Of a stretch of DNA of 39,169 nt, positions 682-11,215 are shown one piece after another. Within the stretch, counting starts at the first letter, position 1. The number at the start of each line of letters is the position of its first letter. The position numbers and the translations under genes are program-made. The DNA is from Bacteroidota bacterium (GTDB taxonomy: Bacteria; Bacteroidota; Ignavibacteria; Ignavibacteriales; Melioribacteraceae), in assembly GCA_021824635.1 (NCBI GenBank), contig JAKAKD010000093.1, positions 1 to 39,169 of the forward strand, written 5' to 3'. The notes below the pieces were generated by a model. It was not told the origin of the DNA. It did no database searches and saw only the letters and a program-made list of their open reading frames with translations.

Positions 682-3600
682 TTATTTAATGACAGCAATC
701 TTGATAATTTTATTTGCAGAATTTCCGCTTACTCCTTTGACTTCAAGCCGTGCAAAATAGATACCGCTTTGGACTTTACTTACATCCCAAATTATTTCAT
801 TATCTAAACCGCCGTTGGCATGTCCGTTCAATTCAGCAACTAATTCTCCGGCAAGATCAACAATTTTAATATTTACATCAGCGTCTTCCGAAGTGTAGAA
901 CCTGATATTGGTTGAACCGCCGTAAACCGGATTCGGCCAGTTGTAAGCTTTTTCCGTCGGGAAAAATTCTGTTGCTTTATTTGAGCTTGAAGGCGCACTA
1001 ACAAACGAAGTATTCATTGCATCGCCGAACATTCCGCTCCAATATGATTTACCTTGAACGGGTGAAAGATTCCAGACATATAACTTGTCGGTTTGGTCTA
1101 TTACTGCGAGATATGGTTTATATATTGGCAAAGGTCCCATTGTTGGGAGTTCTTCTTTTAACAATACCGGGTTTAATAAAAATTGAATACCAGTAGTTAT
1201 TGGAAAACCATCCGCAATTTTTCCGCTGACAGGATTATACGCATAAATTGTTCCCGTTTGAGTATATGCAATTACACTCGTAACTCCATTATTGTTCAGA
1301 TCCAAAGCCAGCGGCGCTCCGGTAAATGATTCATTGCCGGAAATAGTAAAAGGAAAATTCGGAGCGAAATTCCCATTCATGTTATATGCTTCCAGATTTT
1401 GCCCATTAGAAATTAAAATATAATTCTGACCATCTCCGTATAAATCTGCTAATGAGAAATCCGTTATATCATTTTGCGAATTGATTGTAAATCTGTTTAT
1501 AATTTTTCCACCGGCTATAATATAGAACTCATTCTTCTCTGTAAGCACAATGCTGAACGGTTTTGAACCGGTATCTATTGAGTTTATCAGTTTCCTTGCG
1601 GGATTTGCAAGTTTAATAACTGTTCCGTTCGCATCTGAAAAATAATTTTGAGTGATAAGAGAAAAATAATCTGGGCTAGCGCTTATCTGTTTTACCGCTT
1701 CACTCTGTTTTGTTACAACTTCCTTAAAAACGAATGGAATGAATTTCAGTACATCACCAAGCGGATTGCTCGAGTAAACCCGCCCGTCCGATGTGCCTGC
1801 ATAAATTTTTGCGTTATCGCCTGCTTGATCAATTACCAAAGGTGCGCTTACATTTGAAGAGAATGTATAATCTGCAGCGGTTGTTCCACGAAGTTTTAAT
1901 ACATTAGATTGGGTTCCAACTTGATTATAATCAAACGAAGCCGGAATCATATTGCTAAAATTTGGGATAGTTGATTTTAGAACTCCGTTTATATCGTACC
2001 GGTATGTGTTTAAGTTATCAGTCACACAGATAAGAGCCTGCCCGCTTGCAAGTAAAGAAGTTAAATATTTTTGCCCAGTAGATAGTTTCAGATTTGTTAC
2101 GGAAACCGGTTTAATGTTACCGCTGCTGTAATTCAGATTGAATGACATCTTATTGGATACTTTGCTGAAATTTTCCATCGTTATAAAACTGTTAGCGCCG
2201 TTGTTAGTCTTTGTATTGGGCTTTGTATCCGGACCGAAAACATTTTTGTAAAGCTTGGAATCATTTCCTGAATACCAAAAATCCTGGTAGCTGCCTTCAC
2301 CTATTGATGTGCCAAAAATTGAATTGAATTGTTTTCCTATATCCATTATACCATCAGCTTCTTCAACATAAACACCACGCTGATTGGCGTTGGCGTTGAT
2401 GCTATTCGATCCGATGTTTGCATCTATTATTCTATCATCAATATGCCAAATTACAATTCCGTTTCCCGGAACTGCGGCATCATATTCATCAACATCAATA
2501 ACAACCCCACCGTGAATTTTTTCCGGAAGGATTGTGTATAATCCGTTTGTATCAGGTTGAATTGTTGTTGTAAAATTCTGCCCGCCTTTACGGTAAGTAA
2601 CTTTAACATTGTCTTTGTTAGCATCTTGCTGACGGTTCTCAATTAAAAAATACTCGCTTGAATTAAGCGGCACTTTCAATAATGTAGTATCATTTTGTGA
2701 AGCAGTTAACCTGGCTGCAATACTTATTTTTTTATCCGCGATTGACGATATTGTAGTTGGAGTCTCCCAGCCGAGATACATTTTTCCCCACGGTGATGGC
2801 TCAGGCGGAAACATTCCATTATTTGCAACTATTGCTTGCCCATCCATCAGACCAAAACGACCTATTGCGCTTATTCCGGTTTCAGTATTAAACAAATCAG
2901 GTAATCCAAGATAACTTGCAATGTTTGCTACAATAGCCCCATTAATTGTTATTTGTTGAAGTATAATCGAATTATCAATTGCGGTTACTTCCCTTGATTC
3001 AGTTTCAGGAAGAATAATTGAGTTGGAAATTTTACCGCTCTTTGTAGGGAATCCGGTAAATTGATTACCAAAAATTTTTTGAAATGTATTTTGTCCCATA
3101 TAAAGAGATGGCATATTCCTGTCAATAGAATATATTCCTAAATCTAAACCGCTGCTTACTCCGGCATGAAAAATTATAAATAGATCGTAATCGGAAAATT
3201 TTATATTGGAAAATTTACTGTCTGCAATTGTCCAAACTTCTTTTGCAAAATTTGCAAGCGGAGTTAAATCATTGGATTGATAATCCTGCACATAATTCCG
3301 CATGGTTTGCGAAACGGTAATGATATCAGGTAAGACTTTATAATTGATATTCAGTTTGCCATGAGAAACTTTATTAAAATAATTTTTCGCAAAGAGAAGA
3401 TGATCTGAAAAATAATTTGCATCATGCGGAAGCGGATCTAAAATTGTATCACCGTAATCTTGAGTATAATTGGAGCCGAATTTTCCCGTTCCAATTGTTG
3501 CGTCATATTTATCTGCTTGAAAATCCACCATTATCGCTAGAATCTTCAAAGTATCCGCAGATGAGAAATTTTTCAAAACCGGAGAAGGATTGTGAATTAC

Positions 3601-9700: not shown

Positions 9701-10353
9701 TTTTTTACTCCGCTCTTTGGATTGTAAGAAGGACATAAATCCGCCAGCACGCAAATATTGCATTGCGGGCGACGTGCAAAACAAACATTTCTTCCGTGAG
9801 TAGCAAGCCAGTGCGATGAATTGATCCAGTAACTTTCCGGTAATAATTCTTTCAAACGGAATTCAATTTTTTCAGGATCAGATGATTGAACAAAGCCAAG
9901 CAAATTAGATAACCGTTTAACATGTGTATCAACTGCAATTGAAGGAATGCCAAAAGCATTACCCGCAACAACAGAAGCAGTTTTTCTGCCGACACCGGAA
10001 AGTTTAGTAAGCGCATCAAAATCTTTTGGCACTTTGCCTTTATGTTTTTCAATCAGTTGTGCGCAGCAATTACGTATGCTCTTAGCTTTCTGCCTGTAGA
10101 ACCCGGTAGAAAAAATATCTTTTTCAAGTTCCGAACTCTCAACTTTTAGATAGTCTTCCGGTTTCTTGTATTTCTTAAAAAGATTTTTTGTTACAATGTT
10201 CACACGTTCGTCAGTACATTGTGCCGAAAGAATTGTGGATATTAATAATTGAAAGGGCGAGGCATAATCCAATGCCGGGCGAACTGCAGGATATTCTTTC
10301 CCTAAAAGGTCAAAAATCTTTTTCGCATATTTTTTTTCTGCCGGATCAATCAT
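9697..10353 (-). CDS. nth: Endonuclease III (DNA glycosylase/AP lyase)
   Basis: The protein has 218 residues, a normal length for the family. The helix-hairpin-helix LSGVGRKTA carries the lyase Lys124, and the catalytic Asp142 lies in AVDTHVKRLSN. The C-terminal iron-sulfur motif is complete: Cys191-X6-Cys198-X2-Cys201-X5-Cys207. It removes oxidised pyrimidines and nicks abasic sites in base-excision repair. Its start overlaps the end of the 2Fe-2S gene upstream by 8 nt and its stop overlaps the HD gene, so the three are probably co-transcribed. Confidence 0.96.
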   Translation of the reverse strand: MIDPAEKKYAKKIFDLLGKEYPAVRPALDYASPFQLLISTILSAQCTDERVNIVTKNLFKKYKKPEDYLKVESSELEKDIFSTGFYRQKAKSIRNCCAQLIEKHKGKVPKDFDALTKLSGVGRKTASVVAGNAFGIPSIAVDTHVKRLSNLLGFVQSSDPEKIEFRLKELLPESYWINSSHWLATHGRNVCFARRPQCNICVLADLCPSYNPKSGVKK

Positions 10354-10675
10354 CTCTTAAAAACTTCTTAATAAGCAATCTTTCAACCGGCTTGTCATTG
10401 ATTAAATGATTTTGAATTATCTCTTCAACATCTGCAACCTTGACTCCGCCGTACCAAACTTGTTCGGGAAAAACTACAATGCTAGGACCAAACGCGCAAG
10501 CATCTAAACAACCGGTGCCATTTGCACGCATTTTTTTATTTAGTCCCAATTCTTTCAACCGTTTCTTAAAAAGATCACGTATTTCTAACGAGCCTTTTTC
10601 GGAACAGCAGCCTCGCGGATCACCGGGATCTCTTTTGTTTTCACAGATAAAAATATGTTTTTCGTATCGTGACAT
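10346..10675 (-). CDS. Thioredoxin-fold (2Fe-2S) ferredoxin-like protein
   Basis: This is a 109-residue cytoplasmic protein with the cysteine pattern of the thioredoxin-like 2Fe-2S ferredoxins (NuoE/Shethna-like): Cys11 in HIFICENKRDPG, Cys23/Cys24 in GCCSEKG, Cys56 and Cys60 in GTGCLDACAFGP. The GP and YGGV segments after the second pair are also usual for the family. It would carry or exchange electrons, but a partner is not evident; the neighbours are nth, which itself has a 4Fe-4S cluster, and an HD hydrolase. It is the first gene of the three-gene overlapping set, and about 140 nt without a coding gene separates it from the tRNA-Glu remnant upstream. Confidence 0.85.
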   Translation of the reverse strand: MSRYEKHIFICENKRDPGDPRGCCSEKGSLEIRDLFKKRLKELGLNKKMRANGTGCLDACAFGPSIVVFPEQVWYGGVKVADVEEIIQNHLINDKPVERLLIKKFLRDD

Positions 10676-10758
10676 AACTTTAATTCATTGTGATAAATAC
10701 ATTAATCTATTTGCCGCTAATATTAAAACAAAAAAGGGAAACAAATAATTTCCCTAAG

Positions 10759-10819
10759 TGTAGCGCGTACGGGGGTCCTCCATAGGAGTCCCTTCGGGAG
10801 AACCCGTGATCTCCGCCTT
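10759..10819 (-). pseudogene. Displaced 3' half of tRNA-Glu with a 22-nt insertion
   Basis: Read on the minus strand, it reproduces the tRNA-Glu gene at 11090-11163 from the two A residues just 3' of the anticodon to beyond the discriminator base: 39 identical nt (intact counterpart 11088-11126). It is interrupted in the T-loop by 22 nt (10778-10799) that can form two small hairpins (CTCC-ATA-GGAG and TCCC-TTC-GGGA). It overlaps the last two bases of the GIY-YIG stop codon. It lacks the 5' half of the tRNA and cannot make a functional tRNA by itself. Confidence 0.85.
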
Positions 10820-11063
10820 ATTTTAGAATTATTCCATTCTCTTTTAACCAGTTATATCCATCAATAGACTTGAAAAATCTCTCCCTTTCAAAAGCTTCTT
10901 TCCTTGTAGAGAATTCTTCAAGATAGTGCAATTTATAAGGTCTATGCCCTTTTGTATACTTAACTTTTCCATTATTATGTTCTTTTAATCTACTCTCTAA
11001 GTCCTTTGTTGATCCATAGTAGTAAGTACCATCCTTAATACTTCTTAATATATAAGCAAACAT
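10818..11063 (-). CDS. Small GIY-YIG nuclease, inserted behind tRNA-Glu
   Basis: This is an 81-residue single-domain GIY-YIG protein (UvrC-N/UPF0213 type). The motif strands are AYILRS (residues 3-8) and TYYYGS (13-18), followed by the usual Arg25 and His29 of DLESRLKEHNNGK, then TKGHRPYKL and the helix KEAFERERFFKS with the candidate metal-binding Glu. The frame is open further upstream through the tRNA, but that part would be translated tRNA sequence, so the ATG at 11063 is chosen; AGGA lies about 11 nt before it. The gene is flanked by a direct repeat of the tRNA-Glu 3' half. It is either a domesticated repair-type nuclease or part of a mobile unit; the domain assignment is firm, the role is not. 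Confidence 0.85.
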   Translation of the reverse strand: MFAYILRSIKDGTYYYGSTKDLESRLKEHNNGKVKYTKGHRPYKLHYLEEFSTRKEAFERERFFKSIDGYNWLKENGIILK

Positions 11064-11089
11064 CAACAGAACAGTCCTTAAATAAAATG

Positions 11090-11163
11090 TAGCGCGTACG
11101 GGGGTCGAACCCGTGATCTCCGCCTTGAGAGGGCGGCGTCCTGGACCACTAGACGAACGCGCC
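11090..11163 (-). tRNA. tRNA-Glu (anticodon CTC)
   Basis: A 74-nt cloverleaf is readable on the minus strand: acceptor GGCGCGT pairing with ACGCGCT (the first pair is a G-U wobble), D-stem GTCT/GGAC, anticodon stem CCGCC/GGCGG with loop CTCTCAA (anticodon CTC at loop positions 3-5), T-stem ACGGG/CCCGT with loop TTCGACC. The sequence CGCCGCCCTCTCA is typical of bacterial tRNA-Glu. CCA is not encoded. The 3' part of the gene is repeated at 10759-10819. Confidence 0.95.
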
Positions 11164-11215
11164 ATTTGATTTTATGCTGTGCAAAAATAACTCAATGAGC
11201 GCAATAAACAAAAGA

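Follow-up and report, generated by a model that had tools for sequence, protein, structure and literature searches.

An insertion of 329 bp beside an intact tRNA-Glu gene, with a GIY-YIG gene of 81 codons as its sole gene, is likely to be a minimal mobile element of the homing type that uses its predicted nuclease. It was found in the window, i.e. the whole stretch of 39,169 bases that was analysed, and units of the same design were detected at many other tRNA loci. These units are split from the tRNA at recurrent loop points, with the gene lying between the intact tRNA and a hairpin-interrupted part of it. The tRNA-associated GIY-YIG unit is real and widespread and most likely represents a variant of the cassettes of free-standing homing endonucleases, and there is some chance that its insertion, marked by a structure, constitutes a new class; as far as our searches show, it has been undescribed so far.

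Organisation of the unit in the window

An initial annotation of the locus had named an intact tRNA-Glu, an 81-residue GIY-YIG gene and a second tRNA 3' half of 39 nt, and these were recovered by ARAGORN and Rfam, by PF01541 and as two perfect repeat blocks of 20 and 19 nt, respectively (Table 1). Alignment of tRNA-Glu to the displaced copy gave a score of 71, compared to 19 for the best of 30 shuffles, and a chance repeat as the source of the copy was ruled out by these shuffles together with the recurrence of the unit. Measured from outer block to outer block, the 329 bp hold no integrase. The coding frame runs from 11063 to 10821 on the minus strand with the TAA stop at 10820-10818, which is overlapped by the first bases of the inner arm, and a longer frame of 115 aa (10818-11165) that reads back through the tRNA turned out to be the same GIY-YIG frame extended upstream. 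The gene stands alone and outside any intron; at gathering thresholds, the tRNA was the only Rfam match in the window, and none of the 27 sequences that were searched gave a family beyond tRNA and tmRNA.

Inside the displaced copy, a twin hairpin of 22 nt was detected which the annotation had missed. The annotation had also placed the start of the copy at loop position 37 and had taken it as the mark of an insertion into the anticodon loop. This start is correct for the window, but it differs from unit to unit and was therefore ruled out as an insertion mark. Insertion into the anticodon loop probably did not take place here, as the hairpin splits the copy at recurrent loop positions, in the window between C56 and position 57 of the T-loop.

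Table 1. Parts of the tRNA-Glu locus and their positions in the window.
Feature	Position	Strand	Evidence
Intact tRNA-Glu(CTC)	11089..11163	-	ARAGORN; Rfam RF00005, 62.6 bits (Rfam end 11090)
Spacer, 25 nt, from tRNA 3' end to GIY-YIG start codon; divergent in G000 versus G001	11064..11088	-	Sequence, alignment
GIY-YIG gene, 81 aa plus TAA stop	10818..11063	-	ORF; PF01541, E 2.7e-16
Displaced tRNA copy, inner arm, 20 nt, loop position 37 to T-loop C56, identical to tRNA	10800..10819	-	Repeat search
Twin hairpin, 22 nt, minus strand TCCC-GAA-GGGA + CTCC-TAT-GGAG, splitting the copy between GGGTTC and GACCCC	10778..10799	.	Sequence; covariation in the family
Displaced tRNA copy, outer arm, 19 nt, T-loop 57 to tRNA 3' end	10759..10777	-	Repeat search
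Terminator-like hairpin and T run	10731..10755	-	Read by eye
Ferredoxin-like gene, outside the unit; flank marker for finding the site in relatives	10346..10675	-	ORF

Occurrence of the units

The genome that holds the window contains eight GIY-YIG matches, three of them with a tRNA (Glu, Cys and Ala) and a displaced copy, one located 135 nt downstream of the tmRNA at a contig end (L005, 1016-1734) and four without a tRNA in the stretch. A unit at a tmRNA was also observed at L060, with a displaced tmRNA 3' end and a similar hairpin. A search of 146 genomes at E 1e-3 gave GIY-YIG matches in 127 of them, and a search at E 1e-12 of 296 genomes from the whole phylum gave matches in 61, both counts including the genome of the window. 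The hosts named for 42 loci include Melioribacter, Stygiobacter, Caldithrix, Calditrichia, Pedobacter puniceum HX-22-1 and Niabella hibiscisoli THG-DN5.5, and direct reading revealed that the GIY-YIG gene is whole in the Pedobacter strain and broken by two stops in the Niabella strain.

For the survey, 33 loci (30 ferredoxin loci and three repeats) were dropped, leaving 178 loci with 246 matches, 217 of which are non-redundant. A displaced tRNA copy accompanies 159 of these 217 matches, 99 in the 3' type (intact tRNA upstream, copy downstream) and 60 in the 5' type with the mirror order, 86 of the 159 copies coming from hand-picked stretches of match lists, some chosen as array-like. When only the loci that came automatically from the searches were counted, one or more units with a displaced copy were present in 63 of 81. 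The other matches lay in loci without a tRNA on the strand concerned (33), had a same-strand tRNA but no copy above the threshold (22) or gave no candidate (3). This recurrence bears out both the minimal unit proposed in the annotation, which consists of a GIY-YIG gene alone and a replacement tRNA part, and the wider pattern of small GIY-YIG genes at tRNAs that it had suspected. The 151 units that entered a tree belong to tRNAs for Ser (81), Arg (18), Cys (15), Leu (11) and Glu (8), the rest to others, with one at tmRNA.

Carriage by phages or plasmids was ruled out, the searches having returned distant matches only, in 10 phage and four plasmid records and all below 60% identity. GIY-YIG frames are present in the unannotated phage records H1-H4 and H7-H10, whose names refer to Listeria or Staphylococcus phages. 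Those from Listeria phages match as well as Listeria records from the plasmid collection, and the phage records concerned may contain host chromosome.

Tandem arrays

At least two GIY-YIG matches were found on 46 of 158 locus-strands, a few of which represent split matches of a broken gene (L079, L173) or the non-tRNA clade (L002, L113) and have odd periods. Periods of 306, 323 and 289 bp were observed in arrays of three units each and a period of 450 bp in an array of five, and overall the periods are mostly 283-488 bp. Several arrays are found in one-contig genomes (G034, G045, G047), and some hold identical unit copies. Where truncated and intact units share an array away from contig ends, the truncated unit was tRNA-distal in 12 of 12 cases and proximal in none, of which L079 is to be set aside due to its frameshifted tRNA-proximal copy (leaving 11). 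The truncated units lie on the downstream side in 3'-type arrays and on the upstream side in 5'-type arrays, a polarity that fits repeated insertion at the tRNA with older units being pushed outward.

Empty, filled and decayed sites in relatives

The same site was located in relatives by means of the ferredoxin-like neighbour, which gave matches in 45 of 57 genomes, and 30 loci were taken. The comparison with close strains suggested in the annotation led to an empty tRNA-Glu site in L014, L016 and L018 of the same genus, where the tRNA runs directly into the terminator and no unit is present, and the same terminator stands after the displaced copy in the window and in L011 (G001). Therefore, the 3' flank native to the tRNA belongs to the displaced half at this locus, and the unit sits between the displaced half and the intact tRNA. 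The window's unit occupies the same site in G001, and a recent transfer of it is thus not in evidence.

Among the 24 tRNA-Glu genes in the ferredoxin loci, 19 are without a displaced copy and five have one. A profile search of these loci at E 1e-3 detected a GIY-YIG gene in L010 and L011 only; two of the five displaced copies are accompanied by the gene (own genome and G001) and three are not (L013, L017, L023). In L017 (G009) the displaced hairpin-split half is kept, with the split at the T-loop point of the window, and L013 and L023 hold similar remnants. According to the annotation, a displaced half without the gene in relatives would speak against a connection between the two. Such halves were indeed found at these three loci, but since L017 shares its split point with the window, we read them as units that probably lost their GIY-YIG gene.

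Empty and filled states were also observed for the mirror form within one genus, with L029 (G034) being empty and L045 (G109) having two units, both in the order tRNA-Gln, tRNA-Glu, ferredoxin. At tRNA-Ala, a full unit in G000 and a decayed gene in G001 share the same flank. A clean empty tRNA-Ala site was not found: G006 was ruled out since its unit-less tRNA is inverted relative to the matching flank, and the tRNA-Ala without unit in G034 has a weak flank match of 89 bases. In L003, a tRNA-Gly piece with the hairpin ATCCCGACTTGTCGGGAT in place of the anticodon arm was observed upstream of an intact tRNA-Gly (1890-1965, minus strand); no GIY-YIG gene lies between the two, and the piece is possibly a solo remnant.

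The twin hairpin and the split point

The twin consists of two back-to-back hairpins, each of 4 bp with a 3-nt loop, inside the T-loop of the displaced copy. A twin of this kind occurs once in the window, with a mean of 0.04 in the Markov control. In the fetched loci, 42 twins of 22 nt were detected in 13,464 bp of displaced copies compared to 47 in 457,016 bp outside of them, and 41 of these 47 are located within 300 nt of a GIY-YIG match and six farther away. Due to this enrichment and the single occurrence in the window, the 22-nt twin was ruled out as a generic genome palindrome; some of the palindromes of other clades may be generic.

Inserts of at least 8 nt are present in 149 of the 159 copies and missing in 10, and a stem of at least 4 bp was detected in the inserts of 125 copies compared to 44.4 expected from shuffled inserts. 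The 171 inserts of 12-60 nt were assigned to the T-loop (55), the D-loop (45), the anticodon loop (31) and elsewhere (40). When T-loop inserts of at least 12 nt, 18 nt from the tRNA end and without deletion, were considered, 46 of 46 were placed between GTTC and (G/A)A, the position having been a selection criterion and T-loops being conserved anyway.

The twin 4-3-4 form was recognised in 38 of the 42 distinct inserts of 22 nt; the remaining four, which include two twins read with a shift of one base, were left out. In 34 of the 38 twins, 97.1% of the pairs hold compared to 79.6% after shuffling, and 53 cells were changed on both sides compared to 14.8 after shuffling (reached in 0 of 500), with two changed on one side. 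Two of the five covariation measures were weaker, namely pairs with a two-sided change (6 versus 4.0; 13 of 500) and pair types (11 versus 9.7; 97 of 500). The first loop reads (G/A)NA in 36 of 38 twins and the second loop is of its reverse-complement kind in 28 of 38; therefore, one mini-hairpin of the type C-(G/A)NA-G tends to be present on either strand. C-GNA-G hairpins are unusually stable in DNA. Stem mismatches among 304 pairs were two G.T, five A.C and four others, and the lack of a wobble excess over A.C weakly favours a DNA over an RNA role; an RNA-level role as the main constraint is not supported by these few mismatches. Disruption of the target alone would need no conserved twin-hairpin shape, which counts against the homing reading proposed below.

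In L130, L171 and L196, a second twin appears nested inside the first. Upon division of five nested-twin inserts, three leave an exact 22-nt twin and two a near or shifted one, with ties among some of the divisions. Both twin loops read C-NNN-G, and a CNNNG motif is needed at the cut site of I-TevI (PMC4065259). This similarity may be a coincidence.

The GIY-YIG protein and its coupling to the tRNA kind

PF01541 covers residues 3-65 of the 81 residues and is followed by two further helical turns in the AlphaFold model, which shows a single GIY-YIG domain with a mean pLDDT of 95.1. The protein has no distinct region for DNA binding next to the catalytic domain, a feature of I-TevI that is usual but not strictly defining for free-standing homing endonucleases. 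Y4, Y15, G17, R25 and E61, which we take to be the catalytic residues, are among nine invariant columns in an alignment of nine sequences. Profile searches led to 1zg2 (E 8.2e-13) and 1ywl (E 1.9e-11), both UPF0213, and to Slx1 (E 0.0049). Fold comparison of the window model gave 1zg2 as best match (E 1.2e-3), as well as Slx1 (E 8.2e-3) and I-TevI 1ln0 (E 0.36), with no match below E 0.001, and TIGR01453 scored 20.8 compared to its cut-off of 56.05. The dN/dS was 0.07 for the window versus G001 and also 0.07 for the Cys pair, and 0.29, 0.09 and 0.73 for three within-array pairs, the last being based on four changes.

For 129 of 151 units, the nearest protein at another locus belongs to a tRNA for the same amino acid, compared to a mean of 48.7 and a maximum of 68 after shuffling; when Ser units were left out, this held for 57 of 70. 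Twins in which no more than one pair is mismatched were detected in 42 of 65 copies in the window's clade compared to 3 of 86 others (Fisher p 4e-17), a clade that was delimited after seeing the tree, which has few columns and many open forks; other clades bear other hairpins. The displaced copy was compared with the tRNA of its own locus and with the tRNA of the same anticodon at the unit of its nearest relative; the local tRNA was the better match in 105 cases and the worse one in four, with nine ties, and therefore the copy derives from, or stays matched to, the host's own tRNA gene. Between G000 and G001, the displaced copy differs at 3 of 61 positions where ~30% would be expected at the synonymous divergence of 0.38, the terminator beside it being likewise conserved.

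In a sister clade without tRNA association (L002 1480-2423; L086, L097, L110, L111, L113, L115 and L120), the GIY-YIG genes are located between inverted-repeat arms, i.e. at a hairpin apex. The arms vary together (ACCCCGTGAGATA/TATCTCACGGGGT, ACCCCGTCAAATA/TATTTGACGGGGT and others), and for nine genes they were above the shuffled 95% level in 9 of 9 cases and above the shuffled maximum in six. A frame of 145 aa with a HIHG motif, which is reminiscent of Y1 transposases, lies between two GIY-YIG genes in L002 (1725-2162); an identity as Y1 transposase was rejected, as Pfam gave no match at E 0.001.

Proposed insertion mechanism and alternative explanations

We propose that the 81-residue protein, a predicted nuclease, would cut the intact tRNA gene at a site within one of its conserved loops, and that homologous repair through the tRNA arms on either side of the split would copy the unit into the break. 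For strict insertion at a point X, a 3' unit would be composed of the tRNA from X to its end, the spacer, the GIY-YIG gene, the tRNA up to X and the hairpin, and a 5' unit would be the mirror image. Repair of a break at X from a unit-bearing copy would then yield exactly the observed product, in which the intact tRNA would be rebuilt and the displaced target would stay split by the hairpin. The twin hairpin may keep this displaced target from renewed recognition, probably as a DNA structure, and continued cutting of the rebuilt tRNA gene followed by repair from the sister copy could lead to tandem arrays. That the rebuilt tRNA still bears the presumed target counts against the homing reading, and the arrays suggest that the rebuilt tRNA is not fully spared from cutting.

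Among the alternatives, a structure-directed insertion, in which an Slx1-like GIY-YIG protein acts at the DNA hairpin apex of tRNA arms or palindromes and the twins are products of this reaction and not a passive disruption, is unlikely but survives best. It may explain why 131 of 171 inserts are located in a T, anticodon or D loop, why inner twins apparently lie within outer twins and why the nine GIY-YIG genes of the non-tRNA clade stand between co-varying inverted-repeat arms, and Slx1 is among the best fold and profile matches. However, no fold match reaches E 0.001 and the matches are general to GIY-YIG proteins, and the nested twins are few, with other divisions of some of them scoring equally. 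It is possible, though doubtful, that the single-gene GIY-YIG elements of ~300 bp form a categorically new class of mobile DNA. They would target the hairpin apex of tRNA arms (other palindromes in the sister clade), restore the tRNA and stamp the copy with an occupied-site twin having a C-(G/A)NA-G loop per strand, and the nested twins would be a record of repeated attack.

We regard it as quite improbable that the gene is an immobile old host gene beside tRNAs, with the copy made by local duplication and its split serving as an mRNA end structure or as a block to a false tRNA. The same orientation of gene and tRNA, the constraint on the copy (though shared by the adjoining terminator) and the low dN/dS would agree with such a gene, but not the empty and filled states within one genus, the units at Glu, Cys and Ala in one genome, the arrays with their polarity and the missing excess of G.T over A.C, which would be expected for a one-strand RNA role, small as these numbers are. 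Least probable is the integrase-island remnant considered in the annotation, with the GIY-YIG gene as passenger or remnant of a tyrosine-integrase island and the displaced half as an ordinary att repeat: displaced tRNA 3' halves are the usual mark of integrase elements, and a real integrase gene is located at the same tRNA-Glu in G005 (L015, 325-1389; PF00589, E 4e-31), but the T-arm half displaced by that insertion is without a hairpin compared to an insert in nearly all unit copies, the short periods of the arrays leave room for little beyond the GIY-YIG gene, such arrays recur at many tRNA kinds in 5' and 3' mirror forms with some identical copies, and both the kind of tRNA and the type of hairpin go with the GIY-YIG protein.

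Relation to known systems and significance

Closest in behaviour to the homing-type element proposed here are SegB, which is longer than the window protein, and the T-even intronless-homing enzymes, with a GIY-YIG gene outside introns and beside tRNA genes and with tandem amplification. SegB is a strong precedent for the proposed mechanism: it is described as a free-standing enzyme of the GIY-YIG type whose cuts form sharp peaks within tRNA genes, with RAWTSGAAC as the motif of 23 of 83 sites, and which drives a nuclease- and recombination-dependent tandem amplification of tRNA and segB (PMC13096335); intronless homing is treated in a review (PMC2988022). By our own reading, the other strand of this motif, GTTCSAWTY, would correspond to the tRNA T-loop, a word not used in the SegB paper. 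Whereas SegB is found in phages, the units described here reside in bacterial chromosomes and encode 81 aa with little beyond the catalytic domain. The rebuilt tRNA and the displaced copy split by a covarying twin hairpin set them apart from SegB, and their tRNA kind follows the protein, whereas segB genes had no preference for a tRNA kind (PMC13096335).

Tyrosine-integrase islands, one of which occupies the same tRNA-Glu in G005, share the replacement tRNA part and the displaced original part at the far end with the units. They differ from these in the integrase, in the hairpin-marked insertion inside tRNA loops, the mirror 5' form and the tandem arrays of the units, and in the displaced part, which is an uninterrupted direct repeat in the islands but split by 22 nt here. 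UPF0213 proteins (YazA/YhbQ) have the same single GIY-YIG domain in sequence and fold and include the closest solved sequence relatives (1zg2, 1ywl), but the one example considered, in B. subtilis, sits in a housekeeping neighbourhood between trmNF and rsmI and not at a tRNA, which the window gene adjoins. I-TevI and the GIY-YIG endonucleases of group I introns share the fold, weakly for 1ln0, and the C-NNN-G motif; their genes are surrounded by an intron, whereas none was found in the window and TIGR01453 remained below its cut-off. The E. coli tyrT repeats (rtT) resemble the units in that they follow a tRNA gene in tandem and that every repeat contains a piece of the 3' end of the tRNA, but they are not known to include a nuclease gene or a hairpin split. 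A literature search, which covered few subscription papers and no bioRxiv preprints, revealed no account of displaced hairpin-split tRNA copies with GIY-YIG genes and no paper on the tyrT repeats.

If the homing reading is true, few known DNA units that spread by themselves would be as small as these, which consist of one 81-codon gene and a tRNA piece and would be tolerated because the essential tRNA is rebuilt. As they span Ignavibacteria and Calditrichia to cultured Pedobacter, homing in tRNA genes, as described for SegB in phages, would be a permanent trait of bacterial chromosomes. The twin hairpins raise the question of how an element that targets an essential and universal gene marks an occupied site. 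Finally, the small protein with its preference for a tRNA kind would be a compact natural nuclease, as predicted, whose target code may possibly be readable.
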